The notes under the pieces: model-generated
What the model was told of the DNA's origin: nothing
Database searches by the model: none
Seen by the model: only the letters and a program-made list of their open reading frames with translations
NCBI GenBank assembly: GCA_037951105.1
Contig: JBAMJV010004292.1
Span: 81,343 to 145,342, forward strand
DNA length: 64,000 nt
Direction of reading: 5' to 3'
From: Echinarachnius parma
Lineage: Eukaryota > Echinodermata > Echinoidea > Clypeasteroida > Echinarachniidae
Translations under genes and position numbers: made by a program
Part shown: positions 217 through 51,330 of the stretch, piece by piece
Numbering within the stretch: position 1 is the first letter of the stretch
Layout: the number at the start of each line of letters is the position of its first letter

Positions 217-710
217 TTAACCCTAAATCCCCCTCCCACAACTTTTCAAGCAATAATTCAGAAAATAATTAAAAACTATTGGGAAAAAAATGTAGTCTTG
301 ATGATTATGCCGCAAGCTACCTGCGTGCCAAATTTTGTGGCTGCCGTGCATTCCAAAAATCAAAGTAATTTTATGAGCTTAAAAATATGTGAATTTTCAT
401 GTACAAAACCCATGGCGAATTCCTTGTCAGTGAAATTTGCAATATTGGAAAGTCGCCGGAAAGTATCCATCATATCTATCATTGTTCAAATCTGCATAAC
501 TCTCACATTTCTTTGCTGATTTTGATAAAATGTTCTCTTATAAAAGTGGCCAGAGACCGAGATCACTGGTTTAGTTGTGTAAACGAGGGGAGGGGGGGGG
601 GGGGGGGGGTAGATCAGAGAAAAGATGGACCTTTCTGATTTTGCTTTGCTTTTTTTTCTTTTTTTTTTAGGGGGGAGGGGGGTGCTTACGCACAGGCCTC
701 AGTGGGTTAA
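217..710. mobile_element. Diverged copy of the G-tract TTAA element family
   Basis: Starts TTAACCCTAAAT and ends CAGTGGGTTAA, the terminal signature of the family at 17834-18637. The interior carries a long G run (588-609) and a second near 670-682. The text at 300-345 matches 13564-13605 in another copy. The element ends only 50 bp from the SEA exon donor. Confidence 0.6.
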
Positions 711-10604: not shown

Positions 10605-11144
10605 TTAAAGGGGTAGTTCAGTTTTGGTATATAGGGCACTGCACAAAATAATTTGTGTGTGAGATAATGAAAAACTGTGTACAATTTGAAAGAGCATACA
10701 ATTTCTGTGACAGAATAAACTTTATTTGATCAAAATCGGTTCACAAACGGCTGAAATATCAATAAATATATCCAATCAGAATAAATCTGGGGCCAAGATT
10801 TATTTCACGATTTTGCTTTAAATGTAAAAATGCTTACACTTTTTCAAAAAAATTCAAAAGAGGTTTTTAAATAGTTCTTGATCATCTCTCTATTCATTAT
10901 TGCAACAGAACATTACATGCATATTTTTTTATGAAAAATGGTTGAAACCAATGCATTTTTAGAGAGCGCCCTCTTGTGTTTTAATGGCACTTTTTTTTTA
11001 ATAACAACATGCTTTTTACTTATTTTTTTTGTAATTTTTAATACCTTTCAAGCATGGTAGACTCATAACTATTAGTTTGTAATGTTATTGTGCAGGCTTT
11101 GGTTTCGAAAGCTCAGCCTTACCCAAACTGTACTACCCCTTTAA
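10605..11144. mobile_element. TTAA-flanked MITE, diverged F2 member
   Basis: Left end TTAAAGGGGTAGTTCAGTTT, right end AAACTGTACTACCCCTTTAA. The interior shares AGAGAGCGCCCTCTTGTG-type text with copies at 21478, 52873 and 55087. Its right TTAA is at the same time the left TTAA of the next element, so the two are inserted back to back. Confidence 0.8.
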
Positions 11145-11441
11145 CCCTAACCAGGCCGGGGGGGGGGGGGGGGGAATACACCCCCTTTTAATGTGTAGAG
11201 AAATTAATCAAAGGTAAATTTTCCCCATCATCTATTTACCTTTGATTAATTTCTCTAAACATTAAAACATAATTTCATGCAAATATGTCCAATTTTTGCC
11301 CTCTGAACAAAGGATCATTCAAAGTCAATCGCTGTATGGGCTAATCCCATTCATCGCGTATAGCATGGAGGCTGCCATTATATTTTTTGAACCCCGGATT
11401 TTGAATTGTTCGCGCCGAAACGCTACGTCAAACCCGAACAA

Positions 11442-13108
11442 ACTAGATGGATCACGCTATCACGCGATTTTAATATCAAGCCCAAATTAACATGCACTGA
11501 TTTATTTTTTAACAATATTTTTCATATATTTGGAGTCCTGTGACCTTGACCATATGACCATAATCTTTGATGGCTCCCTAAAAAACATTCAGGTACCAAG
11601 TTTGATTGAAATCTGACATTTAGTTCATAAGATTTTGGCATTACAAGCTTTTTTTGCATGTATAATGAGTCCCGTGACCTTGACTTCAACCTCATGACCC
11701 CAACATTTTATGGCTACGTTGACTCTTTATGAAACATTCAGGTACCGAGTTTGATTGAAATCTGACATTCAGTTGAGTCTTGTGACCCTGACATTTGACC
11801 TCATGACCCCCCAAATCTAATCAAATCAGTGGCACCCCGATATGTACACTCATACCAAGTTTGAAATTGATCCGTCAACCAGTTCTTGAGATATCGCGAG
11901 AACGAGGCATTTTTGTATATATATATTGAGTCCTGTGACCCTGACCTTTGACCTCATGACCCCTAAAATCTAATCAGATCATTGTCACCCCAATATGTAC
12001 ACTCATACCAAGTTTGAAATTGATCCGTCAACTGGTTCTTGAGATATCGCGAGAACGAGGCATTTTTGCACATACATTGAGTCCTGTGACCTTGACCTTT
12101 GACCTCATGAACCCCAAAATCTAATCAGATCACTGCCACGCCAATATCTACACTAATACCAAGTTTGAATTTGATCCGTCAACCAGTTCTTGAGATATCG
12201 CGAGAACGAGGCATTTTTGTATATATATTGAGTCCTGTGACCTTGACCTTTGACCTCATGACCCCTAAAATCTAATCAGATCATTGCCACCCCAATATGT
12301 ACACTCATACCAAGTTTGAAATTGATCCGTCAACTGGTTCTTGAGATATCGCGAGAACGAAAACAGGACGGACGGACGTACGTACGGACGGATGTACGTA
12401 CGTACGGACGGACGAACAACCTGAAAACATATTGGGCCGTATGCATAAAAACAAGCAATTGATAATAAGCAAATGCTTTAAGCACAAGCAAGAGCTTGTC
12501 AAGCAAAAGATCAAGTTCAAGCAATTGCTTAAATTCGTATGCACAAGCCTTTGCTTGTGCTTAAACCTTTTGCTTGCACTGCCAAGCAATTGCTTACGTG
12601 TTGGACAAAGGATCGTTACGGTTGTGCACTGCACTGCAGGGCAACAACGCTTCGTGCCCGACCTGGCAGCAGTATTTTTTATTACGCAAATAGGGGGGAA
12701 ACAGCGCGGAGCATCAGGGGGGTTTCTGTGCAGATCGATGGACAAAAATTGCCGTAAAAAGTCTAAAATAACAGGGATTTGATCACAACATAACCTCTGG
12801 AATATGAGCTTGAAATCATCCTGAAACGGTACGAAAATTGAACCTTAAACGCGAATGCCCTGAGTAAGCAAGAGCTCAAGCTGGTCTGGATGTGCTTGAA
12901 AAAACGCAAGCAATTGCTTATCAAGACAAGTAAAAGGTTCGTTTTATGCATACGGTTTTAATCAATTGCTTGTTTGGTAAGCATTTGCTTACGAGCAGTA
13001 ATTGCTTGTTTTTATGCATACCGATTCAAGCAAAAGGCTAGCACAAGCAATTGCTTGTTTTTATGCATACGGCCCAATGCCTCCGGCCACTTCGCTGGCG
13101 GAGGCATA
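11442..13108 (+). mobile_element. Pearl/HINE-like element P2
   Basis: Starts CTAGATGGATCACGC, has about four ~154-bp tandem units with TGACC(T/C)TGACCTTTGACC and CGAGAACGAGGCATTTTT, a GGAC/GTAC microsatellite (12366-12415), and ends GCCTCCGGCCAC...GGAGGCAT. The MITE at 12434-13075 is inserted between its AAAACATA and ATGCCTCCGG tail motifs. Confidence 0.75.
12434..13075. mobile_element. MITE with AAGCAATTGCTT motifs, complete copy
   Basis: Perfect outer inverted repeats GGGCCGTATGCATAAAAACA / TGTTTTTATGCATACGGCCC. Many AAGCAATTGCTT or similar palindromes lie near both ends. The core at 12600-12780 is close to 5640-5820 in opposite orientation and can be read openly in several frames, with no known domain. 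GGGCC-type ends recall PIF/Harbinger MITEs, but a 3-bp target duplication is not clear. Confidence 0.8.
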
Positions 13109-13808
13109 ACAAGCTCGGCCTCTTTTTGTTAGCTCTCGCAGCTCGCGGGGTTTGTGCACAAACACAAGGCAAAACGTGAGCCAACAAAAAGAGTAGTTCG
13201 GGTTTGACATTTTAGAGCGATCCGAGTTTCATAAACATCAATGGCAGCCTCCTTGGTGTTCGCGATGAATGGGATTATCCTGTACAGCGAGTGACTTTGA
13301 ATGATGCTCATCCCTTGCTCAAAAGGCCAATGTTGGTCGTATTTGCATGAAAATGTGTTTTAATGTTTAGAGAACATAATCAAAGGTGATTATATGTTGG
13401 GGAAAATGTCCCTTTAATTAAGTCATAAAGAATATTCATACACAAAATTAGCATATTCTGAGCTATATTTAGTGACTTACAGATAAAAAGGGGATTTCTG
13501 CATAAATTTGCATAATTAATCAAAAATTGATTATTTTCAACAAAATAACAATGCAATCTTGTAGATTATGTTGCAAGCTATCTGCGTGCCAAATTTTGTG
13601 GCGGGGGTGGTGGAATCCACCTCCCGGCCAGAGCATAGCCAAAATAACCCAGCCTGGTTAGGGTTAAATTCTATTTAATTTCTGTTTCAAAAACAAATAT
13701 CAAGGGAACTGCAATGTAATTATTAACAAAATAAATTAACAAACACTTTCAAATGTGATCTTTAACAAAATTACAAAATATATTAAAAACACTTTTAAAA
13801 TGTGATCA

Positions 13809-17575: not shown

Positions 17576-18930
17576 ATAATAATAATAATAATACATAATA
17601 TTTATATAGCGCTTCATACTGATGTTTCTAAGCGCATTAAGCATTAAGAACAGAAAATAATACAACTTATACGGTGTGCGCCCGAAAAAAATAATACCAA
17701 TACCAATATTTAAGGTAGAAATACTACAAAAGAGAACCAATTATATGACGATGTAATATAAAACTAAGACATAAAACGTGTGCTTGACAAAAAATTATAC
17801 AGTTGATTGAACAGGTAAGTTTTAAGAAGTGATTTAACCCTAATCCCACTGGGTTATTTTGATCACTTGAGTCCACTGGGGGGGGGGGGGGGCATTTTGG
17901 CCCCCCCCCCCCCCCTCAAATCTCGGCAACGAATGGACCGATTGACTCGAAAATTGGCACATACGTAAAACTAGTCTAGTAGAATAATAATTTGAGGAAA
18001 GAAAACAAATTGGACCATTATTTTTTTTTTTTTAATTAATTAAAATTTTGAATATGCAAATTTTTGACGAATTTGGGGGAAAATTGGGATTTTCATCTAA
18101 AATCAAGAGAAATTACCGGATTTCTTCAGGTTTTCAGGTAAAAATACTTTCAAATGATGTAATTCATCATATCCATGTTTTTTATGGCAATGAAATATAT
18201 CACTAATTTGCATAAATATGCAAATTAGTATTCCCGGATTTACCCACATTGTTTTCATTCTTATGTATTTTATTGTTTTTATTGTTTTTTTAAGTTTTTT
18301 TTTTTAGAAGAATTTATCTCTAAAGTGTATGAATTAAACTAATAACAAAGAAATTATAACAGATTTGGAGTTTACATGGCATCGGATTTAGGAATTACAT
18401 AGAAACCTGTACAAAAATTGCATTTTTTTGTGACGGTCGAGCAATTATCGACCTCTAAAATCCGTTCTACATGTCCGACCGGGGTGAATTATATATCAAA
18501 ACGTGCGGGAGACTTGAGAGAAAAAAGTCATGAAGTTTGAACGTGAAATTCCAATCGGTCTAGATGCACGTCGAAAAAACGACAGGGGGGGGGCCAAAAT
18601 GGCCCCCCCCCCCCCCCCCAGTGGGATTAGGGTTAAATATATCTACTGTGGGGGCATCTTGAATATGATGGGAGAGCTTGTTCCAAAGGGCTGGGGCTAT
18701 TAAGGAGTAGGCACGGTCTCCATATCTAGTCTTACTACGGGATCCGTGGGAAAGCTGCAGCGTTGAGGAAGAACGAAGATGTCTGGAAGTGGATGAAGAA
18801 CGAAGTGAAATAAGATCTTGAAGGTAATTAGGTGCAAGTTGATGAAATATTTTATACACAAGCAGGATTTTGAAGCTAATGCGATGGTGGACCGGAAGCC
18901 AGTGGAGGGAACGAAGAACTGGAGTTACTG
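17576..18930 (-). mobile_element. CR1/L2-like non-LTR retrotransposon 3' fragment, split by a TTAA element
   Basis: On the minus strand, 18930-18638 encodes the end of a reverse transcriptase ORF (features such as APNYLQDLI, KTRYGDRAYS, APALWNKLSHHIQ). The frame stops at the TTAA element and resumes on its far side at 17833 with LKTYLFNQL. It ends with a GCGCTATATAAATA tail and an ATT repeat at 17576-17592. Truncated and inactive. Removing the insert with one TTAA gives a continuous frame. Confidence 0.85.
17834..18637. mobile_element. G-tract TTAA element, type copy (F1)
   Basis: 804 bp. Termini TTAACCCTAATCCCACTGGG and CCCAGTGGGATTAGGGTTAA. Next to each end is a hairpin made of a G run, a short spacer and a C run (17878-17915 and 18584-18619). 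The body is AT-rich, with the conserved text CTCGGCAACGAATGGACC. Non-coding. It lies in the retrotransposon reading frame with duplicated TTAA. Confidence 0.9.
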
Positions 18931-27440: not shown

Positions 27441-28706
27441 TTAACCCTATGTTAACTGGGGGGGGGGGTCAATTTGACCCCCCCCCTCAACTTTTCGCGC
27501 GATAATTCCGCAATGCGCGCCAATGTTGCCGCGCGACTTCATGAGTTTTTTCATTGAAGTCTTGCGCAACTTTTGAGACCAAATTTGTGACGACCGGGTA
27601 CTCTGTTCTAAAGTCACGTGACCTTTTGTAAGTGAGCGTCGGACCAAAAATCGCTAAATTTTGTGATTTGTGTACAAATCCTATGGAAATTGATTTTTTC
27701 CTCTAATAGACAATTCCTTCATTTTTTTTCATTCTAATCACTGCAATCATTTGATTTTTGGCTAAACATGGTCAATAATTTATTCCATTGAAAAAAACAA
27801 TAAAAAACATGAGTAAAAGAAACAAAGAAATACATAAGATAACACGTACTAAAAGATGTGAATCCATAAGTCCAGTTTTGTATAATTTACATTGGTTGCC
27901 TGTAAATAAACGAATTCTGTTTAAGATTTTAGTCATTACGTTTAAATGCATACATGGAAATGCACCTGATTATTTTCAAGAACTTATTAGTTTGTATAAA
28001 TCATCTAGGGTCCTTCGTTCAAGTTCAAAGAATCTTTTAGTTCAGTATTCTGTTAAAACTAAGACATACGGTCAGCGGTCTTTCCAGTTTGCTGCACCTA
28101 TGCTCTGGAATAAACTTCCTTACCATATTAGACAATCTGATACAGAGCAACAATTTCGAGCCAATTTAAAGGCTTTTTTGTTTGTTAATGAATTGTAAGT
28201 TTCTACTATTGTATCTTTGCTTAAATACGCTTCTATTTCTCTCTCTCTTTCATTTATGCGCACTGAGACTTAATTGTAAGATTGCGCTATATAAGAAATT
28301 ACCATTATTATTATTATTATTATAAGAAATTCCAAAAACAACGAAATACATAAGAAAATTTTGGCTATCGCAATTTTTAATTTTGAAAACATGTTAATTA
28401 AGTCATAAAGTATATTTATGCAAACAATTTGCATATTCTGAGCAATATTTAGTGATTTACAGACAAAAAGAGGATTTTTGCATAAATTAGCGTATTTCGG
28501 TAATTAATATGCGCATAATTTGCATATTTAACGTTAGATCGTTTAAACGAAAACATGAACACGTCGCTAATACTTCAATGTACCCTCGTGCAAAATTTCG
28601 CGTGAATCGGACAATCGGTCTTCGAGATCATTACGGAGGGGGGTCAAATTGACCCCCCCCCCCAGTAAAAACCCGGTCTGAAATAGCCCAGTTAGAATAG
28701 GGTTAA
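27441..28706. mobile_element. G-tract TTAA element copy with an L2-like insertion
   Basis: Ends TTAACCCTATGTTAACTGGG and ATAGGGTTAA; G/C hairpins at 27460-27487 and 28637-28663. Unit 2 shows the empty site: AGATCT-TTAA-AGACTTTAG near 36031, against two TTAA copies here. A retrotransposon fragment (27782-28324) is inside. Confidence 0.92.
27782..28324 (+). mobile_element. CR1/L2-like retrotransposon 3' end
   Basis: An open frame (27788-28198, about 136 codons) holds the C-terminal region of a non-LTR reverse transcriptase: VLYNLHWLPVNKRI, GNAPDYFQELI, KTYGQRSFQFAAP, LWNKLPYHIR. It is followed by GCGCTATATAAGAAATTACC and an ATT repeat tail. 5'-truncated on insertion, as usual for this group. 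Confidence 0.9.
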
Positions 28707-29725: not shown

Positions 29726-31020
29726 CTAGATGGATCTTCGACTGCGCGCAGTCGAAAATGATGCCTCCGCCATTACGCAATTTATTTATATCAAGCCCAA
29801 ATCAACATATACACTGAATTAATTCTGTACACTGAATTAATTCTGTTAACTCAATTTTGATGGTACTCTATCTTTTAGATCTTGACGTATCACAATTATG
29901 AGCTATCAGTGACCTTGACCTTTGCCCTCATGACCCCAAAATCTAATGACTACAATTGTTCCCTAAGATACATTCAGGTATCAATTTGGATTGAAATCTG
30001 ATATTCAGTTCTTGAGATTTCCAATCTCAAGCTACTTTTACATATAATGAGCCCTGTGACCTTTGACCTCATGACCCCCAAAATCTAATCAGTTCATTGG
30101 CTCTCCAAGGAACATACATGTACCAAGTTTGTTCAGAATCTGTCAATCCCTTCTTGAGATAACGCGATCACGAGCTATTTTTGCATATATAATGAGCTCT
30201 GTGACCTTTGACCTTTGACCTCATGACCCCAAAATCTACTCAGATCATCGGCCCCCCAAGATATACATGTACCAAGTTTGGTCAGAATCTGTCAATCCCT
30301 TCTTGAGATAACGCGATCACGAGCTATTTTTGCATATATAATGAGCTCTGTGACCTTTGACCTTTGACCTCATGACCCCAAAATCTAATCAGATCATCGG
30401 CCCCCCAAGATACATACATGTACCAAGTTTGGTCAGAATCTGTCAATCCCTTCTTGAGATAACGCGATCACGAGCTATTTTTGCATATATAATGAGCTTT
30501 GTGACCTTTGACCTTTGACCTCATGACCCCAAAATCTAATCAGATCATTGGCCCCCCAAGATACATACATGTACCAAGTTTGGTCAGAATCTGTCAATCC
30601 CTTCTTGAGATAACGCGATCACGAGCTATTTTTGCATATATAATGAGCTCTGTGACCTTTGAACTTTGACCTCATGACCCCAAAATCTAATCAGATCATT
30701 GGCCCCCCAAGATACATACATGTACCAAGTTTGGTCAGAATCCGTCAATCCGTTCTTGAGATAACGCGATCACGAGCTATTTTTGCATATATAATGAGCT
30801 CTGTGACCTTTGACCTTTGACCTCATGACCCCAAAATCTAATCAGATCATCGGCCCCCCAAGATACATACATGACCCAAGTTTGGTGAAAATCCGTCAAT
30901 CGGTTCTTGAGATAACGCGATCACGAGAACGGGACGTACGTACGTACGTACGGACGTACGTACGGACGGACGGACAACCCGAAAACATAATGCCTCCGGC
31001 TACTTCGTTGCGGAGGCATA
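29726..31020 (+). mobile_element. Pearl/HINE-like element P3
   Basis: Starts CTAGATGGATCTTCGACTGC, ends CGTTGCGGAGGCAT(A). Five to six ~150-bp tandem units (about 30030-30880), each with TGACCTTTGACCTTTGACC, TACCAAGTTTGGTCAGAATC and GATAACGCGATCACGAG. Then a GTAC/GGAC microsatellite (30935-30976). The empty site in unit 2 (37050) is an A run, with no clear target duplication, as expected for Helentron relatives. Confidence 0.82.
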
Positions 31021-31613
31021 AAAAGGTTTAACCATCTCGCAATTCGCTCAGGATTGATATTACAAAATAGTATAAAGGGAGTAGTTTGATTAAATGCATT
31101 AAGATGCTGTTATGATTATTCCCTCCAAGGTATTAATATATCCACGGGTTCACAAGAATATGATAAACAGGCCAACGGGGGATAAAATTGAATTTGGAAA
31201 TTAAAATTTGGAGATCATTTTGTAGGAAAAGACGATCCTATCTAACTTTGAAAAAAAAAAAAAAAAAAAAAAAAAACACATCGATTGCATGTGTTAGTAT
31301 TTTGGATGTGTCATGCATAGGCCTATAATTTTACATTTCTTGCAGATGTCATTGTATCATTTAATTTGTGATCCCTTTTCTCTGACTAAAACCCCACGGA
31401 TTTCCGCGGGTGCCGCTAGTTCTTTATTAATATGGCAACAAACAAGGTTTATTTCAAAATTACATTCATAAAAAACATTTTCCGCATGTAAAATTGTTTG
31501 CGATATCTACCATTTTCCAAACAAATAGATAAACATACATGTATAGGACAGTAATATGAAAAGAAGAAGAAATAGAGTTCCTTCAAGCAATTGCTCTTGT
31601 AAAAAGTGCTTAC

Positions 31614-31796
31614 TCTGACACACAGGAGGAGATGAGAGTAGGCCATTGGAGTTGCAGATGGCTGCAGGCTCTGAGATTAATGTGTGGCCTGTACTGCAAC
31701 TAAACTGACACTGGGTGCCCTCTTTGACATCACTTCCTTCTGGACAGTTGCCCATAAGGTCCGAGACTTGTCTGTCGTAGCTCACCCTGCACAGTG
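31614..31796 (-). CDS. CCP/sushi module 9 exon (B-type, copy 2)
   Basis: Exon of 183 nt, phase 1-1; acceptor GTAACAG, donor GTAAGCAC. Six cysteines; starts LCRVSYDRQVSD and ends SSPPVCQ. Almost identical to module 7; the acceptor-side intron has the same sequence until a TTAA-flanked element interrupts it in copy 3. Confidence 0.9.
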
Positions 31797-31908
31797 CTGT
31801 TACATAATGAAAGTTCAATGATAATGAAAAGTAAAAGTTAATTTCCTATAAACACACTATTAAAGGTCTGTCATGCTGTGACACTCCTTGCGTGAATACT
31901 TCTGCATC

Positions 31909-33138
31909 TTAAAGGTATGGTGAAATCCCTGCTTTGATTCAGGTTTATAGCTAAGTTGGGCAAAAAAGGTAAATTTCATGCAACTTTTTTGCTTGTTTTC
32001 GCATCGGCGTTCCATGCTGATAAAAAAGTTTTTTATAGCGGAGCGGGAATGTGCGCACGTGCAACCCGGATAATGACATCACAAGCAGACCGCAACACGG
32101 AGGAACGTGCATGGTTTACATGCAGAGCCTATGACTTGCTTGTAAAACAAACTCGTTTTTGCTTGTAAATTGAGGCTTAAAGTGATCCAGGTAAAGTGTC
32201 TAACTCCATGAAAAATACTTGGAGCTTCCTCGTTTTTCTTCTGCCGTGTTGTTTAGCTCATGGTAAGAGAAGAATAAAATAGGGTTCGATTTTGTCAAAT
32301 GTCCCTTTAGTATGAAGATAATTATCATTGAAAATCATTATTTCAAAAGCGTTAGCTAACGGTTTTGATAAAAAGTACAATTGTCGTTGCTGAACACGTC
32401 CTGCCAGAGCGCGTGGGAAATTTTCCCGACCCACTGAACTTTGAGCCTAGCGTGCGCAAATTCCATGAATTCCGTATCGTCTGTAGCTGTATACACGGGT
32501 GCGGATATCGTCAAGATCAAACGGATGATTATTACTGCGACAAATCTACAACAGACCATCAGTATTCGGTGATAAAATATGAACTCAATATTCGTTTTTT
32601 TCACTAGGTAAACAGTGGTCGTTTTCTTTCAAACGTTCACAAATCTTTCAATTCTATTTTACAATGATATTGATATAGGATTGAAGTATCAAATGTCAGT
32701 TTGTGCAATATCTGACACTTTACACGGATCACTTTAACTGAAAATTCCTATGAAATGAATTATAGCAGCTTGCAACAACACATCTGAGTGTAGATCGTCC
32801 ATGATATAAACTTTAACAAATGTTTGCAAAAATTGACAAAAATCGAAAAAATATCTCTCTGTCAACGCGAGTATTGCACTCAGCGTGTACGTCTATGACC
32901 GAGCTACTTGTATACTGCGACTGCCTGCATGTGACGTCACAAAGATGACGTCATTTTTCTTCGCCCGGACTCAATTTTTTTATGGGGATTACTAAAGTGA
33001 ATTTAAAAGTTGATTTTTTTTATTTTACTGGGTTTTCCGACGCGGAAAATATGTTTTTATTAGTAATCTTCATGAAAATCTACCTTAGATACAGTAACAC
33101 ACAATTTTTAGGTAGTTTTCTTGTCAGCCAACCTTTAA
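31909..33138. mobile_element. TTAA-flanked element (family F4), copy 1
   Basis: Ends TTAAAGGTATGGTGAAATCC and GTCAGCCAACCTTTAA. Unit 2 has the empty site CATC-TTAA-TTTGCTG near 40185, so the target duplication is TTAA. Copy 2 is at 62116-62848 in reverse orientation. Non-coding. Confidence 0.9.
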
Positions 33139-33244
33139 TTTGCTGATGGATTTCGTGTTGGTTGTGGGTTTGATTCGCAACTGCGGCATTATGTGTCCCT
33201 CAGCAAGGCTCTTTATCTATATTTGCCGTTTCAACCCAGGTGTG
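33139..33244 (+). repeat. SINE-like fragment (unit 1)
   Basis: Contains GGGTTTGATTCGCAACTGCG, a degenerate B box, and GTGTCCCTCAGCAAGGC, text common in deuterostome SINE bodies. The same fragment is at 40187-40292 in unit 2. Confidence 0.6.
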
Positions 33245-33927
33245 TTAACCCTAAAAATGCCAGGCTATGTGTGGTCTTTCTGTGGCCGGGGGGGGGGGGG
33301 GGGGCTATTATGCCCCCCCCCCCCCACCCACCTACGATCTCAACTGCGAAACGGCCAATTGCCGCAACAATTTGCACGCATGTCAAGTGAAAAGTAAAGA
33401 ATACTATGGTAATTTCAATTTTTTGAAAAATTCATTAATTTTCAAGTTTATGGTAATTTATGCAAATAAGGTCATAAAATTCATATTTTTACCCATAAGT
33501 CATATATCCTTCATAGTTAAACATGGTTTTCACTACATATATTCTTTAGGCCATTTTGAATAATAATACAACAACAAAATTTTGAAGAGCCTGGTCATTC
33601 CTTATGTTTTCTATTGTTTGGATGATTTTATTTATGTATTTTTTATTTTTTTTTACTTTAATTTTTTTGCTGTTTTATTTTATATCTAACTATCAAGAAA
33701 ATGAGCAAAGCAATTTTCGGGCTGACATGCAGTGACAAAAGGTCACCTGACTTTGTAACAGTAGGTCCGATTTTCAAATATGTTTTTGTCAAAGGTGCGC
33801 AAGACTCGAAAATAAAAAGTCACCAAGCGGAGGTGCGTCATCTTTACGCATTCCCGGACAATCAGAAAAATCGAGGAGGGGGGGGGGGGGGCATAATGCC
33901 CCCACCCCCTGGCCTTATTAGGGTTAA
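33245..33927. mobile_element. G-tract TTAA element copy in unit 1
   Basis: Ends TTAACCCTAAAAATGCCAGG and CCTTATTAGGGTTAA; G run/C run hairpins 33288-33326 and 33876-33909. The orthologous insertion 40293-40954 in unit 2 shows that this copy predates the duplication. Confidence 0.9.
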
Positions 33928-34190
33928 CTGGGTACTTGACAGAAACTTATTCTTTGAAATGCTTGATGCACCTAATTGATACAGCGTGGATAAAGCCAGT
34001 GTATAATAATGGTACATCATACAGCAGTTTGAAACGTTAGTATCAAGCCCTAGAAACAGGTTTTTATCTATCATCAATTATTATAATGTTTATACCGTCT
34101 ATTGTCCAAATACACGAAAAGGTACACACCCACAATTGTATTGAGTACTCTACTGACATGCAATATTTGAATGAGTTTTAAAAAACTTAC

Positions 34191-34379
34191 AAATGCAGTT
34201 TGGAACTTCGGCTGAGAAATTTCCACTGGCCCGACATGTCATCTGAGGGGCGCCCTCAATCTGATAGCCATCCGCGCAGGCGAATGAACAATTGTCCATC
34301 CACTCAACAGAGCCTAGTGCAGGACAACTTCCATTTAATCCAGCAACCGAATCATAGGCAGGGACATGGCAAGTTACAA
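34191..34379 (-). CDS. CCP/sushi module 8 exon (A-type, copy 2)
   Basis: Exon of 189 nt, phase 1-1; acceptor ATCACAG, donor GTAAGTTT. Six cysteines, VTCHVPAYDS start. It carries small replacements relative to copies 1 and 3 (for example EWMDN where copy 3 has EWRDN). Intron sequence on both sides aligns with that of module 6. Confidence 0.9.
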
Positions 34380-34672
34380 CTGTGATGGAATAAATACAAA
34401 GAAGAACCATATAAATATAAACAGAAATATTTGATCGAGGAAGAATATCGTAAAGTAACACCAAATCATTTATCAAACACAATTGCCTCTGATTGATTAT
34501 GCTATCAACAGCACAATTTGTATTCAACCCACTGACAATTAATGTTGTCAAATATAGTTCTTTTATAGTAACCCTGGAATGACTAAAAAGACTCCCTTTA
34601 TTTTTGTGACAACTCCGAAATGCAAAAATCTCACACATCATCGCAATGGGGATTTTTTCCTTTAGAGTCTTA

Positions 34673-34884
34673 AGCCCGGCGCAGACAGAGCCGACTCGAC
34701 CCAACCCGACTGGTTTCAATCAGGCTAGAGTTGGGCCCGGTCGGTCGGAGCAGATTTATCTTGTTGAATTGGCCCCAACTGGCAACCGACTGTCTCTCTA
34801 CTGGCAAAATGTGTGTTGCGAGGCACTAAAAACTGAGCCGATCGGAATGACAACCAGTCGAGTCGGCTCTGTCTGCGCCGGGCA
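34673..34884. mobile_element. 212-bp MITE, PIF/Harbinger type
   Basis: Inverted ends GCCCGGCGCAGACAGAGCCG and CGGCTCTGTCTGCGCCGGGC. The unit 2 site near 41700 is empty (GAGTC-TTA-TGCAT), while here TTA stands on both sides. A 3-bp TTA duplication is typical of PIF/Harbinger. Confidence 0.88.
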
Positions 34885-38600: not shown

Positions 38601-39095
38601 ACCGGTAGAACAGATATCAGGGAAATGCATGAGGCAATAATATTTTTTTTCACTTTTTCATGCAATTTCAAATCAATTCGTGATTTCTGAGGTTCGACAT
38701 CTTGCGACTTTTGGCTCCCCTGCGGATGGCGAGGCACATATATCCAAGGGTTCACAAGAATATGATAAACAGGCCAACAGGGGATAAAATTGAATTTGGA
38801 AATTAAAATGTGGAGATCATTTTGTAGGAAAAGGCGATAATAATTAACTTTGCACAAAAAAGAAAGAAAACACATCGATTGCATGTGTTAGTATTTTGGA
38901 TGTGTCATGCATAGGCCTATAATTTTACATATCTTGCAGATGTCATTGTATCGCATTGTATCATTTAATTTGTGATCCCTTTTCTCTAAAACTCCGCGGA
39001 ATTTCGCGGGTGCCGCTGGTTCTTTATTAATATGGCAACAAACAAGGTTTATTTTAAAATTACAATAAGCAATTGCTCTTGTAAAAAGTGCTTAC

Positions 39096-39278
39096 TCTGA
39101 CACACAGGAGGAGAGGAGAGTAGGCCATCAGAGTTGCAGATGGCTTCAGGCTCCGAGATTAATGTGTGGCCTGTACTGCAACTAAACTGACACTGGGTGC
39201 CCTCTTTGACATCACTTCCTTCTGGACAGTTGCCCATAAGGTCTGAGACTTGTCCGACGTAGCTCACCCTGCACAGTG
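39096..39278 (-). CDS. CCP/sushi module 7 exon (B-type, copy 3)
   Basis: Exon of 183 nt, phase 1-1; acceptor GTAACAG, donor GTAAGCAC. Six cysteines; starts LCRVSYVGQVSD, core TQCQFSCSTGH, ends SSPPVCQ. It differs from copy 2 (31614-31796) at only a handful of codons. The flanking intron also aligns with copy 2, which marks a recent segmental duplication. Confidence 0.9.
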
Positions 39279-39334
39279 CTGTTACAGAATGAAAGTTCAA
39301 TGATAATGAAAGTTAATTTCCTATAAACACACTA

Positions 39335-40137
39335 TTAACCCTCAAAAGACTGGGCTATTTTGAACCTTAACAAAACTGGGGGGGGGGGGGGGGGGGGGGG
39401 GCTAAAAGGCCCCCCCCCCTAAGATCTCGGCAACCGAAACTCCAATCGACTCCAAATTTGGCATCGTGATAGATGTCCATAAGGTCTACAATATTGCGTA
39501 GTTAAAACAAAAATTAATTAGGATATGCTAATTAGAGCTAATTAATTATGCAAAAATGGTATTTTTTTGTAGTTTTTGTAGTTTTCTCGGCAATCAAAAC
39601 TCCAATCGACTCCAAATTTGGCATGGTGGTAGATGTCCATGAGCCATACAATATTGCATAGTTATTTTTTTTGTTTTAATCATAATATGCTAATTAGAGC
39701 TAATTAATTATGCGATAATTGCAAATTTTTTTTCGTATTTTTTGCATTTTTAAAATATTTGTTATAATATATATTTTTTTGATGGAATAAAATATTAACC
39801 ATTATTCAACCATTTGTAGTCCAAAATTAAATAATTGCAGTGATCAGAATGAAAAATAATGAAGATTTTGTCTAATCTAGGAAAAAGTCAATTTCCATAG
39901 GATTTGTACACAAATCACAAAATTGAGCGATTTTGGGGCCGACGCTCACTTACAAAAGGTCACGTAACTTTAGAACGGTACACCTGGTTGTCGCAAATTT
40001 GGTATAAAAAGTTGCGCAAGACTCTAAGGAAAAAAGTCGTGAAGTGGCACCGTAAAATATTTAAGCGTTGCGAAGTAATCGCGAAAATAGAGGAGGGGGG
40101 GGGGCTAAATCAGCCCCCCCAGTCTTTTTAGGGTTAA
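39335..40137. mobile_element. G-tract TTAA element copy unique to unit 2
   Basis: Ends TTAACCCTCAAAAGACTGGG and TTTTTAGGGTTAA; G run of about 23 near 39378. Unit 1 shows the empty site CACACTA-TTAA-AGGTCTG near 31857. The body has two copies of CTCCAATCGACTCCAAATTT. Confidence 0.92.
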
Positions 40138-40292
40138 AGGTCTGTCATGCTGTGACACTCCTTGCGCGAATACTTCTGCATCTTAATTTGCTGATGGATT
40201 TCGTGTTGGTTGTGGGTTTGATTCGCAACTGCGGCATTATGTGTCCCTCAGCAAGGCACTTTATCTATATTTGCCGTCTCAACCCAGGTGTG

Positions 40293-40954
40293 TTAACCCT
40301 AAAAAGGCCGGGCTATTTGTGGTCTTTCTATGGCCGGGGGGGGGGGGGGGGGCTATTATGCCCCCCCCCCCCCCACCCCCCTAAGATCTCAATCGTGAAA
40401 CGGCCAATCGGCGCGAAAATTTGCACGCATGTCAAGTGAAGAGTAAAGAATACTATGGTAAATTAATTTGACAGTTTATGGTAATTTATGCAAATAAGGT
40501 CATAAAATTCATATTTTTACCCATAAGTCATATATTCTTCATAGTTAAACATGGTTTTCACTACATATATTCTTTAGACCATTTTCAATAATAATACAAC
40601 AACAAAATTTGGAAGAGCCAGGTAATTCCTTGTATTTTCTATTGTTTGGATAATTTAATTTATGTTTTTTTTTTTTTTTTTTTACTTTATTGTTTTTTAT
40701 ATTTTATTTTATATCTAACTATCAAGAAAATGAGCGATTTTCGGGCTGACATGCAGTGACAAAAGGTCACCTGACTTTGTAACAGTAGGTCAGATTTTCA
40801 AATATTTTTTTTCCTCAAAGGTGCGCAAGACTCGAAAGAAAAAAAGTCAACAAGCGGCGGTGCGTCATCTTTACGCGTTCCCGGACAATCAGACAAATCG
40901 AGGAGGGGGGGGGGGGGGGCATAATACCCCCACCCCCGGCCTTATTAGGGTTAA
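40293..40954. mobile_element. G-tract TTAA element copy in unit 2, paralogous to 33245-33927
   Basis: Ends TTAACCCTAAAAAGGCCGGG and CCTTATTAGGGTTAA, with G and C runs near both ends. It lies only 156 bp from the copy at 39335-40137. Confidence 0.9.
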
Positions 40955-41218
40955 CTGGGTACTTGACAGAAACTTATTCTTTGAAATGCTTGATGCACCT
41001 AATTGATACAGCGTGGCTAAAGCCAGTGTATAATAATGGTACATCATACAGCAGTTTAAAACATTAGTATCAAGCCTTAGAAACAAGTTTTTATCTATCG
41101 TCAATTATTACAATGTTTATACCGTCTTTTGTCCAAATACACAAAAAGGTACACACCCCACAATTGTATTGAGTATTCTACTGACATGCAATATTTGAAT
41201 GAGTTTTAAAAAACTTAC

Positions 41219-41407
41219 AAATGCAGTTTGGAACTTCCTCTGAGAAATTTCCACTGGCCTGACATGTCATCTGAGTGGTGCCCTCAATCTGATAGCCATC
41301 TGCGCAGGCGAATAAACAATTGTCCCTCCACTCAACAGAGCCTAGTGCAGGACAAGTTCCATTTAATCCAGCAACCGAATCATAGGCAGGGACATGGCAA
41401 GTTACAA
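41219..41407 (-). CDS. CCP/sushi module 6 exon (A-type, copy 3)
   Basis: Exon of 189 nt, phase 1-1; acceptor ATCACAG, donor GTAAGTTT. Six cysteines; starts VTCHVPAYDSVAGLNG. It is a near-identical paralogue of the exons at 34191-34379 and 25023-25211, with a few replacements such as GTTQ in place of GAPQ. It belongs to the third A-B pair, with the B exon at 39096-39278. Confidence 0.9.
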
Positions 41408-42231
41408 CTGTGATGGAATAAATACAAAGAACCATATAAATATAAACAGAAATATTTGATCGAGGAAGAATATTGTAAAGTAACACCAAATCATTTATCA
41501 AACAAAATTGCCTCTGATTGATTATGATATCTACAGCACAATTTGTATTCAACCCACTGACAATTAATGTTGTCAAATCTAGTTCTTTCATAGTAACCCT
41601 GGAATGACTAAAAAGACTGACTCCCTTTATTTTTGTGACAACACCGAAATGCAAAAATCTCACACATCATCGCAATGGGAATTTTTTCAAACAGAGTCTT
41701 ATGCATATTTTGATTCCAAATTTGCAGGCTTCGTGACTATAGTCCTGGTGTCAAATGTCATTTTAAGGTCAAATGTCGCACTAAAAAATACTACAAAAGT
41801 GCAATTTCCTATTCTTTTCTGTGTTAAATGCACAGTAATTTTGAAATATTCAAAACTATATTTCCAGCAAAGTCATGTAGAGTTTTCAAAACCTCTTCAA
41901 AAGCGTTTATTACACAAAATGAAATAAAAACCAAAACAAATACAAAAGAAAGTAATGTATCTTGTTTATGTTTTTTGTGGTTTTGTCAGGATTGTTTAAC
42001 TCATTCATTTTTCAAAATATAAACTGAACCCTCAAATCAACTTTTTGACAACATTTGTGACCAGCTATCCCAATTTGAGACACGTCTTGACATTAATCAT
42101 GTTTGAGTTATGTATACCATCTTGTTGTCCATGTCTTAGTAGCATCACCAACTTCATCAACATTATTACCACAATCATAATCATAATCATAATCATCATA
42201 ATCATTGTCATCATCAACACCACTATCTTAC

Positions 42232-45511: not shown

Positions 45512-47079
45512 ACTAGATGGATCTTCGACTGCGCGCAGTCGAAAATGATGCCTCCGCCATTACGCAATGTATTGATATCAAGCCCAAATCAACATGTACA
45601 CTGAATTAATTCTGTCACTCAATTTTGATGGTACTCTGTCTTTTAGATCTTGACGTATCACAATTATGAGCTATAAGTGACCTTGACCTTTGCCCTCATG
45701 ACCCCAAAATCTTATGACTACAATTGTTCCCTAAGATACATTCAGGTATCAAGTTGGATTGAAATCTGATATTCAGTTCTTGAGATTTCCAATCTCAAGC
45801 TACTTTTTACATATAATGAGCCCTGTGACCTTTGACCTCATGACCCCAAAATCTAATCAGTTCATTGGCTCTCCAAGGAACATACATGTACCAAGTTTGG
45901 TCAGAATCTGTCAATCCCTTCTTGAGATAACGCGATCACGAGCTATTTTTGCATATATAATGAGCTCTGTGACCTTTGACCTTTGACCTCATGACCCCAA
46001 AATCTAATCAGATCATTGGCCCCCCAATATACATACATGACCCAAGTTTGGTGAAAATCCGTCAATCGGTTCTTGAGATAACGCGATCACGAGAACGGGA
46101 CGTACGGACGTACGGACGGACGGACGGACGCAGGGGCGTCGATCCTGGGGGGGCAAGGGGGGCGGTCGCCCCACCAATGAAAATATTGGGGGGGCGAACA
46201 TATCATTTCGCCCCCCCAATAATTCCGAAAATGAGGAAGAAAAAAATTGAGTGATATAATGCCAAAGAGTGAAAAGACTCATTTATCAATAATTAGTCTT
46301 CCAAATAGCTGTTTGTTAGTTTAAAAAGGACTATAAATCTCATTTTTGCCACGCGCTTCGCGCGCATACAGTTCAATCGGAATATCATGTCCCCCACATT
46401 TGAAAGTGGAGGAGATTGTCCCCCTCTCTTTGTCGTTATGTATGTTTGGTTCCATACTTATAGACTTCATATAACGTGAAATTAATGTCTTAGGTGTGCA
46501 CCAAATCGCACAATTTCACGCCCCAAAATACAAAAGCTCCCTACTGTGGGAGGGGGACACCCCCTCCCACACCCTCCCCCGCTCCGTCGCTTCTCTTCCT
46601 CGCAATGTCTCCCCTCCACTTTGTAGGAGTTGTTGACGCTCTAGAGTATATCGATGTCTCTATTGAATCACGTGGATCCATCTCATGCAAGGCTCAATCT
46701 CTTCTTCGCTATGCCCTTTAAGAATACATTACGAGTATAGGTTCACCTTTTTATACAATTTTAACACGCATGATAGGAGTTGCAAATGTCTGAAATCTAA
46801 AAGCTTCCGGGGGCTCCGCCCCATGTGGGTGCCCCCAAAGTCAGGTCTTCAAGCCATCAAGACACTTTTAACGAGCGCATAATAAAATTGTTGGGCATGC
46901 CAAATGTGAGTTGTTTAGCTCTCTCAGTGGTCACTCTCGAAAAATTTTCATATTTCGCCCCCCCAATCGCAAAAACGGATCGACGCCCCTGGACGGACGG
47001 ACGGACGTACGTACGTACGGACGGACGGACGGACAACCCGAAAACATAATGCCTCCGGTTACTTCGTTGCGGAGGCATA
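45512..47079 (+). mobile_element. Pearl/HINE-like element P4
   Basis: Starts CTAGATGGATCTTCGACTGC, ends GTTACTTCGTTGCGGAGGCA. Two TGACCTTTGACC units, then a GTAC/GGAC microsatellite, which is split by the element at 46132-46990. Confidence 0.8.
46132..46990. mobile_element. TIR element, AGGGGCGTCGATCC ends, inside P4
   Basis: AGGGGCGTCGATCCTGGGGG at the left and GGATCGACGCCCCT at the right. Subterminal G/C-rich arms (GGGGGGGCGAACATATCATT and TTCGCCCCCCCAATC). The surrounding GGACGGAC repeat continues on both sides. The GGCGTCGAT end recalls the short hairpins at 13941 and 57208. Confidence 0.8.
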
Positions 47080-47654: not shown

Positions 47655-48335
47655 ATGTTTCATGACCTCTCACACGACACATCTTTTTTGCTGAAATGCT
47701 AAGAGATCAGAAGTTGCATTATGTTTCATGACATCTCACACAATGCAACTTGCTTGTTGCAACGCTAGTGATCAGAAGTTGCATTATTTATGTTTCATGA
47801 CATCTCACACAATGCAACTTGCTTGTTGCAACGCTAGTGATCAGAAGTTGCATTATTTATGTTTCATGACACCTCACACAATGCAACTTGCTTGTTGCAA
47901 CGCTAGTGATCAGAAGTTGCATTATTTATGTTTCATGACATCTCACACAATGCAACTTGCTTGTTGCAACGCTAGTGATCAGAATTTGCATTATTTATGT
48001 TTCATGACATCTCACACAATGCAACTTGCTTGTTGCAACGCTAGTGATCAGAATTTGCATTATGTTTCAAGACCTCTCACACGACGCAACTTTTTTGCTG
48101 CAATGCTAGAGATCAGAAGTTGCATTATTTATCATGACATCTCACACAATGGAACTTGCTTGTTGCAACGCTAGTGATCAGAAATTGCATTATTTATGTT
48201 TCATGACATCTCACACAATGCAACTTGCTTGTTGCAACGCTAGTGATCAGAAGTTGCATTATTTATGTTTCATGACATCTCACACAATGCAACTTGCTTG
48301 TTGCAATGCTAGTGATCAGAAGTTGCATGTTTCAT
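47655..48335. repeat. Minisatellite, 69-bp unit
   Basis: About ten units with GATCAGAAGTTGCATTATTT, ATGTTTCATGACATCTCACA and CAATGCAACTTGCTTGTTGC. The unit is 23 codons long, so a 148-codon frame stays open. It is a repeat artefact and not a protein. Confidence 0.93.
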
Positions 48336-48833: not shown

Positions 48834-48954
48834 GTCAAGAGACTTCGCAACGGTATACCCGGTCGTCGCAAATTTGGTCTCAAATATGCACTTCAATGAC
48901 AAAACTCATGAAGCAGCGCAGCAATACCTGCAAGTGTTGCCCTATTAGGGTTAA
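48834..48954. mobile_element. Right-end fragment of a G-tract TTAA element
   Basis: Ends CCCTATTAGGGTTAA and contains GGTATACCCGGTCGTCGCAA, which matches 27545-27610 (complement) and 39970-40000. The left end is lost. Confidence 0.7.
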
Positions 48955-50456: not shown

Positions 50457-50572
50457 CTGTCAATTAAAGAAGAGAAAAACAATACAACCAATGACAGAGC
50501 AAATACCTCCTAAAGTGCCAAGTACTTGACTGCAGTGCTTTGAGCTTGAGTGTAATCTAACACTGCAGTTCT

Positions 50573-51330
50573 TTATGCATGACTGCAAGCTTCCACTGCA
50601 GTGTGTTATGCATGACTGCAAGCTTCCACTGCAGTGCTTTATACATGACTGCAAGCTTCCACTGCAGTGCTTTATGCATGACTGCAAGCTTCCACTGCAG
50701 TGCGTTATGCATGACTGCAAGCTTCCACTGCAGTTCTTTATGCATGACTGCAAGCTTCCACTGCAGTGCTTTATGTATGACTGCAAGCTTCCACTGCAGT
50801 GCTTTATGCATGACTGCAATCTTACACTGCAGTGCTTTATGCATGACTGCAAGCTTCCACTGCAGTACTTTATGCATGACTGCAAGCTTACACTGCAGTG
50901 CTTTATGCATGTGCTTTATACATGACTGCACGCCTCCACTGCAGTGCTTTATACATGACTGCAAGCTTCCACTGCAGTGCTTTATGCATGACTGCAAGCT
51001 TCCACTGCAGTGCTTAATGCATGACTGCAAGCTTCCACGTCAGTGCTGTATGCATGACTGCAAGCTTCCACTGCAGTTCTTTATACATAACTGCAAGCTT
51101 CCACTGTACAAGTGCTTTATACATGACTGCAAGCTTCCACTGCAATGATATATGCATGACTGCAAGCTTCCACTGCAGTGCTTTATGCCTGACTGCAAGC
51201 TTCCACTGCATTACTTTATGCATGACTGTAATCTTCCACTGCAGTGCTTTATGCATGACTAAGCTTCCACTGCAGTGTTTTATGCATGACTGCAGGCTTC
51301 CACTGCAGTGCTTTATGCATGACTTTGCGC
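50573..51330. repeat. Minisatellite, 33-bp unit, ~23 copies
   Basis: Unit TGACTGCAAGCTTCCACTGC plus AGTGCTTTATGCA. Eleven codons per unit keep long frames open on both strands. It lies in the intron close to the acceptor of module 3. TGCAG words recur in every unit. Confidence 0.95.

Follow-up and report, generated by a model that had tools for sequence, protein, structure and literature searches.

The piggyBac element of T. ni has a CCC tip and a 13-bp end repeat. Its palindrome, TGCGTaAAATTgACGCA, is described as lying internal to the end repeat, 3 bp further in at one end and 31 bp at the other (PMC3459987); the far end has an insertion and a duplication. Two cysteine-rich domains (CRDs) of the transposase dimer were reported to bind bp 17–33, and the minor groove to be narrowed close to bp 25 (PMC7351741). 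A short human relative, the PGBD3-related MITE MER85, was reported to have a palindrome 3 bp inside its 13-bp repeat that is needed for PGBD3 binding in vitro; replacing the palindrome lost 80% of the binding, and it was present in all copies bound in cells (PMC3459987). The near/far layout of T. ni is not universal in the superfamily: piggyBat of Myotis lucifugus differs from it. In piggyBat a motif and an imperfect AT-rich palindrome at bp 19–30 were reported to be bound by two CRDs (PMC11707139). By definition, piggyBac elements carry a CC[C/T]T tip and an end repeat of 12–19 bp (PMC2872659).

The elements studied here were found in a 64,000-nucleotide window of the Echinarachnius parma genome (contig C4290, positions 81343 to 145342), and the search was extended to the whole assembly (1.2 Gb, 14790 contigs). 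They resemble T. ni piggyBac (LE35/RE63) in having TTAA targets, AT-centred palindromes and near and far ends, and differ from it in that no transposase is encoded and the palindrome arms, TGCGT/ACGCA in T. ni, are G/C runs of 5–27 bases. Like MER85 they are short, non-coding piggyBac elements, whereas MER85, with 889 human copies, is described with a single palindrome at one end (arms GTTCCA/TGGAAC). In contrast to these elements, piggyBat is described as having three palindromes on one end and none on the other; its CRD fold also differs from the piggyBac CRD fold. The CMITE elements of Acropora corals, as described, are similar in comprising several piggyBac-type MITE families that differ in their end repeats, have related interiors and show duplications of TTAA, but are only about 100 bp long, and G/C-run palindromes are not mentioned in the available portion of that description. 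Among the titles and abstract openings listed, none concerned piggyBac-type MITEs with homopolymer palindrome arms. We conclude, with a probability of roughly 0.8, that the elements are non-autonomous piggyBac-superfamily MITEs mobilised in trans, and that the structures annotated as hairpins are most likely CRD palindromes of the transposase. A puzzling hairpin is thereby recast as a candidate binding site.

Table 1. Elements of the window, their palindromes and target sites.
Feature	Position	Strand	Remarks
Family F1, whole element including both TTAA	17834..18636	+	Far-type end left, near-type end right
F1 element, left TTAA target-site copy	17834..17837	.	From the sequence
F1 element, right TTAA target-site copy	18633..18636	.	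From the sequence
F1 far-end palindrome, G15-CATTTTGG-C15	17878..17915	+	G-run begins 40 bases past tip
F1 near-end palindrome, read inward G17-CCATTTTGG-C9	18585..18619	-	G-run begins 13 bases past tip
Family F7 element, CCCTAT tips	27441..28706	+	Near palindrome 27458-27486, far 28638-28663; same spacer TCAATTTGA in both
F3-like element	33245..33927	+	Far palindrome 33288-33325, near 33878-33909 (one-base break in outer run)
Family F2 element	39335..40137	+	Far palindrome 39378-39419, near 40095-40120 (spacer read inward CTGATTTAG)
F3-like element, duplicate of 33245	40293..40954	+	Far palindrome 40336-40374, near 40905-40937 (one-base break in outer run)
Family F8 element, related, 2.5 kb, other repeats within	11141..13667	+	
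Left end of related element	217..261	+	Tip intact, palindrome missing
Fragment, one tip (48945-48954)	48834..48954	-	No palindrome; interior resembles 27441 and 39335
Empty-site counterpart of element 39335	31703..31912	+	94.3% identity to joined flanks

The F1 element was largely as the first-pass annotation had described it: flanked by TTAA, with a perfect end repeat and a G-run/C-run palindrome inside each end, although it ends at 18636 rather than 18637. The terminal repeat is 20 bases long with TTAA counted in, CCCTAATCCCACTGGG follows the TTAA at both ends, and tip and repeat conform to the piggyBac definition. The other listed places were also real; they belong, however, to several families and not to the single one proposed, as tips and spacers differ and interiors are only partly similar. 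Ends of the form CCCTAA...TTAGGG had been claimed for all copies, but the F7 element has CCCTAT at its tips and the left tip of element 39335 reads CCCTCA. Palindromes of a G-run, an AT-rich spacer and a C-run were present at both ends of five elements (17834, 27441, 33245, 39335 and 40293) and were absent from 217 and 48834–48954. The F8 element has a G17 run at its left end without a matching palindrome there; at its right end a palindrome with a GGTGGATTCCACC core occupies 13605–13625 (score reached by 26 of 200 shuffles). The end at 217–261 resembles 27441 just inward of the near palindrome, and no other end of it was recognised.

The motif TTAACCCTAA was found 11 times in the window (0.17 expected) and 7495 + 7616 times in the genome, compared to 1927 + 1915 for the reversed control. 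With the whole end pattern, the run being placed anywhere in the allowed range, 4816 forward matches were obtained in the genome against 121 in the control. The further genomic copies on which the first-pass annotation had staked its family therefore exist. A genome search with the whole F1 element gave 1458 candidates; in the 40 places scored, most or all of the element was matched at 83–100% identity, and 30 of these were taken for close study. Three pairs shared both flanks (L039/L040, 99.6% identity; L061/L065, 99.0%; L063/L066, 99.4%) and look, from their sequences, like alleles or recent duplicates. In one copy, L071, tandem units of about 1.2 kb have brought the length to 5.7 kb, and four of these units share nearly the same 89-aa frame. 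Another, L075, is 2.5 kb long and contains inserted DNA with repeated GTTACGTATGGGACA motifs (a tandem pair at 963–992, others by eye).

Since the palindromic TTAA on both sides could belong to the element, the 150-base flanks were joined with 0, 1 or 2 copies of TTAA and compared with the studied sequence. At least one place aligned across the junction for 9 of 26 elements. A single TTAA was best in six of the nine (L004, L008, L041, L042, L051 and 39335 of the window) and at 30 of 35 places overall, including 11 of 12 for L004 and 15 of 16 for L051; in the detailed alignments of L051, L008 and L004 it was best in eight of eight, and the L051 sites themselves read TTGA. The clearest empty site was the counterpart of element 39335, with scores of 358, 375 and 366 for 0, 1 and 2 TTAA. 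The other three of the nine were narrow exceptions and count against the reading: 0 TTAA won for L045 (312 vs 308), and 2 TTAA for 33245 and 40293, two cases of one insertion (145 vs 142). A TTAA target-site duplication, with a single TTAA at the empty site, is supported on balance.

Elements 33245 and 40293 are one insertion duplicated with its surroundings (33135–34672 vs 40183–41701, 92.6% identity). Element 39335 was present in one copy of the duplicated stretch only; it is younger than the duplication, because the other copy, at its empty site, lacks it. The duplicated stretch extends over approximately 31136–34672 and 38738–41701, in pieces 88–98% identical with one F3-like copy each, and contains minus-strand ORFs with a Sushi domain (34150–34719 and 41178–41663).

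The G-runs began at two distances from the tip. On the forward strand of the genome, with a non-G base required before the run, it started 11–14 bases past the tip in 2035 matches (control: 0) and 37–41 bases past it in 2126 (control: 5). The 21 offsets from 16 to 36 gave 427 matches (control: 63) and the 24 offsets from 42 to 65 gave 479 (control: 66), offset 15 lying outside these ranges; most of the few places shown from the 16–36 class were near or far ends with another base interrupting the outer run. Reverse-strand counts were left out because the same start was listed with several ends. Among 72 parsed ends, which include four second readings of the same element (via L005 and L039), the G-run followed after 13–14 bases in 31, after 38–41 in 34, and after 23 or 42–47 in seven. 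All 24 elements parsed at both ends, up to 2.6 kb long and with two allele-like pairs making up four of the rows, had one near-type and one far-type end, the asymmetry of the T. ni layout. In the near end, 13 bases are followed by GGG and the palindrome. The far end is about 26 bases longer and repeats the motif that precedes the run, e.g. ACTGGG, and the far-end spacers shown (such as CTAAAAGG, CTCATTGG and CTGTTTTGG) were often poorer palindromes than those of near ends, which counts against a transposase site. The piggyBac type, which had been proposed from the target and the CCC start, is thus supported by single-TTAA empty sites, the CCC tip and the near/far asymmetry.

An autonomous partner would be expected to have TTAACCCT at its tips and G-run palindromes 13 and 40 bases in. 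The list of matches to PF13843, the piggyBac transposase family, contained 118 in the genome. CCCTAA tips with G-run palindromes were not found at the 35 loci representing 38 of these 118 matches; many of these loci end before the element does. No autonomous partner, as sought since the first pass, was recognised at these loci, which counts against the piggyBac reading. Transposase groups A (571 aa), C (453 aa), D (L073/L074) and E (L017) were rejected as partners on their differing tips and palindromes, and L016, L021, L072, L076 and L077 were rejected as such ends were not found there. The long copies L071 and L075 were rejected as autonomous elements, their longest frames being 89 aa with a start and 108 codons from stop to stop; that they have no transposase-sized frame also counts against the piggyBac reading. 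The source transposase is probably present in this genome, or was formerly. Kolobok and Sola3 are other superfamilies with TTAA targets, and one of them might instead mobilise the elements, given that TTAA by itself is not unique to piggyBac and that no partner was found at the 38 matches. We regard this as very improbable, for piggyBac is matched by the CCC tip, by a palindrome placed close to where piggyBac has its own and by the asymmetry of the two distances.

Several other piggyBac groups were observed in the course of this search. The 453-aa transposase occurs in dozens of near-identical copies (L018–L020, L022–L038, L069 and L070; approximately 98–99.9% identity in compared pairs) and looks recently amplified; inspection by eye placed it next to a tandem array, of about 72 bases, on contig C2868. 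In the group L009–L015, six copies have an open frame of 571 aa and the seventh, L010, one of 552 aa; the tip TTAACCCATCGGCGCC is present in six of the seven, and C-runs of variable length lie beyond the gene.

The palindromes of these in-genome groups gave an indication of where a CRD site might be expected. Group C has CCGAGAATTCTCGG at bp 18–31 (ranked third in palindrome scoring), group D has GGCCACGATCGTGGCC at bp 17–32, repeated at 51–66, and group E has GCACGTACTATTACGTGC at bp 16–33 with a shorter copy at 60–75. The three are unrelated in sequence and all centred at bp 24.5. In group A, the program listed a palindrome at bp 60–79, and a similar one at about bp 19–32, outside the program's three, was seen by eye. 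The palindromes of the three groups and of three published elements centre at about bp 24–25, which suggests a positional rule. When the letters of the first 100 bases were plainly shuffled 200 times, the best left-end score was reached in 5, 4, 3 and 8 shuffles for groups A, C, D and E, a moderate excess only, and in 0, 0, 1 and 1 for four G-run ends. Palindrome scoring found none at this address in the right ends of groups D and E, whose scores were reached in 8 and 90 of 200 shuffles, respectively; this counts against the CRD reading. The Pfam zinc-finger model zf-Tnp_2 gave nothing above cut-off in the four transposases (A whole; C, D and E as pieces, those of D and E C-terminal), the sole match, to the group C piece, scoring 20.4 bits (E 0.00077) against a cut-off of 24; this, too, counts against the CRD reading. 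Cysteine patterns were seen by eye at the C-termini of the tested transposases.

The spacers covaried between families. In eight family spacers, 27 of 32 Watson-Crick cells paired, compared to 17.1 expected when the partners were dealt anew among families (P about 1e-4), and 23 of 28 without F5b (seven families, P about 0.001). One spacer was picked by hand for each family, from the near end if one had been seen there; the set excluded family F8, the spacer of 33245/40293 and far-end versions. Within F1 no compensatory change was seen: positions 2–3 vary (CCA, CTG, CCG, CCT) against an unchanged TGG, positions 7–8 being fixed. The compensatory changes looked for on the strength of the first-pass annotation thus occur between families and were not seen within this one. 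Symmetry is preserved from family to family, which a dimer site and a hairpin would predict equally well.

The covariation had been taken to mean that the hairpin fold itself is kept, and a G:C hairpin, cruciform or G-quadruplex of a single strand could be the signal that serves the transposase or replication. The arms are indeed long and complementary, and in a preprint (PMC12324416) the formation of hairpins or cruciforms by the subterminal inverted repeats of human piggyBac-like elements is described as theoretically possible. Nevertheless, a duplex palindrome for a transposase dimer predicts the same covariation and also accounts for the position, and the asymmetry and AT-rich centre fit known duplex CRD sites; the F1 spacer changes, moreover, stay uncompensated. 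We consider it improbable that the fold is the signal, and neither fold-based nor quadruplex readings are needed to explain the data. According to the preferred CRD reading, a piggyBac-type transposase acting in trans would insert the elements at TTAA, its CRD dimer would bind the G-run palindrome as a duplex (a putative site), and the near/far asymmetry would set how the transposase pairs the two ends. After insertion, the G/C homopolymer arms would grow and shrink by replication slippage.

Run lengths were compared in 61 ends (29 near, 32 far), L005 and L039 having been dropped as repeats. Outer G-runs ranged over 6–27 bases, with medians of 13 at near and 17 at far ends; inner C-runs ranged over 5–20, with medians of 9 and 8. 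The outer run was longer than the inner one in 54 ends (paired P 3e-9), and this held for either strand of the assembly (29 of 33 ends and 25 of 28). Outer G-run length differed at four of six ends of the three allele-like pairs, which could be due to slippage or to sequencing error; slippage is the source that we infer. The GGG motif precedes the palindrome, so the outer arm starts three bases longer and would pass a slippage threshold first.

One possibility is that the long runs have no function: a short palindrome would have been present at transposition, and the runs would since have grown by slippage, or be partly assembly error, and would hold no information beyond the ancestral core. 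The length differences between allele-like copies and the wide range of the outer runs agree with this. It bears on run length only and not on the palindrome, and plain sequencing error would not favour the outer run on both strands. We give it about an even chance; it is compatible with the palindromes being CRD sites.

The palindrome was centred at a median of bp 31.5 in the 29 near ends and of bp 61.0 in far ends. These centres lie further in than those of T. ni, by about 7 bases or more, which counts against a CRD site. In the near end with the shortest run (L071), the palindrome is centred at bp 24.0, and the median lies at bp 31.5 rather than about 25 because of the long runs. The arms, being G/C homopolymers, would slip in length, and most palindromes would therefore sit beyond the canonical bp 24–25. 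A rigid rule for the spacing of tip and CRD would leave most copies inactive, and it is here that a rigid CRD model fits the data least well. What is new in these elements is that the homopolymer arms vary even between allele-like copies, pushing most palindromes off the canonical position. The run-length variants form a natural series for asking how rigid the tip-to-CRD spacing is.

More speculatively, and in our view unlikely, the G-run palindrome might be a hypermutable, self-tuning site in which slippage shifts the distance from the tip to the CRD dimer copy by copy. Copies would then drift in and out of register and toggle their own mobility, following the logic of a contingency locus, and a matching CRD able to read G tracts would be required.

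Tandem repeats were also observed elsewhere in the window. Repeats of about 150 bases, as judged by how far apart the BLAST matches lie, occupy 29911–30923 and 45679–46089, and relatives of these are the empty target of L051. Short tandem repeats at 47728–48174 and 50460–51148 are open in frame over 140–189 codons and are probably minisatellites.
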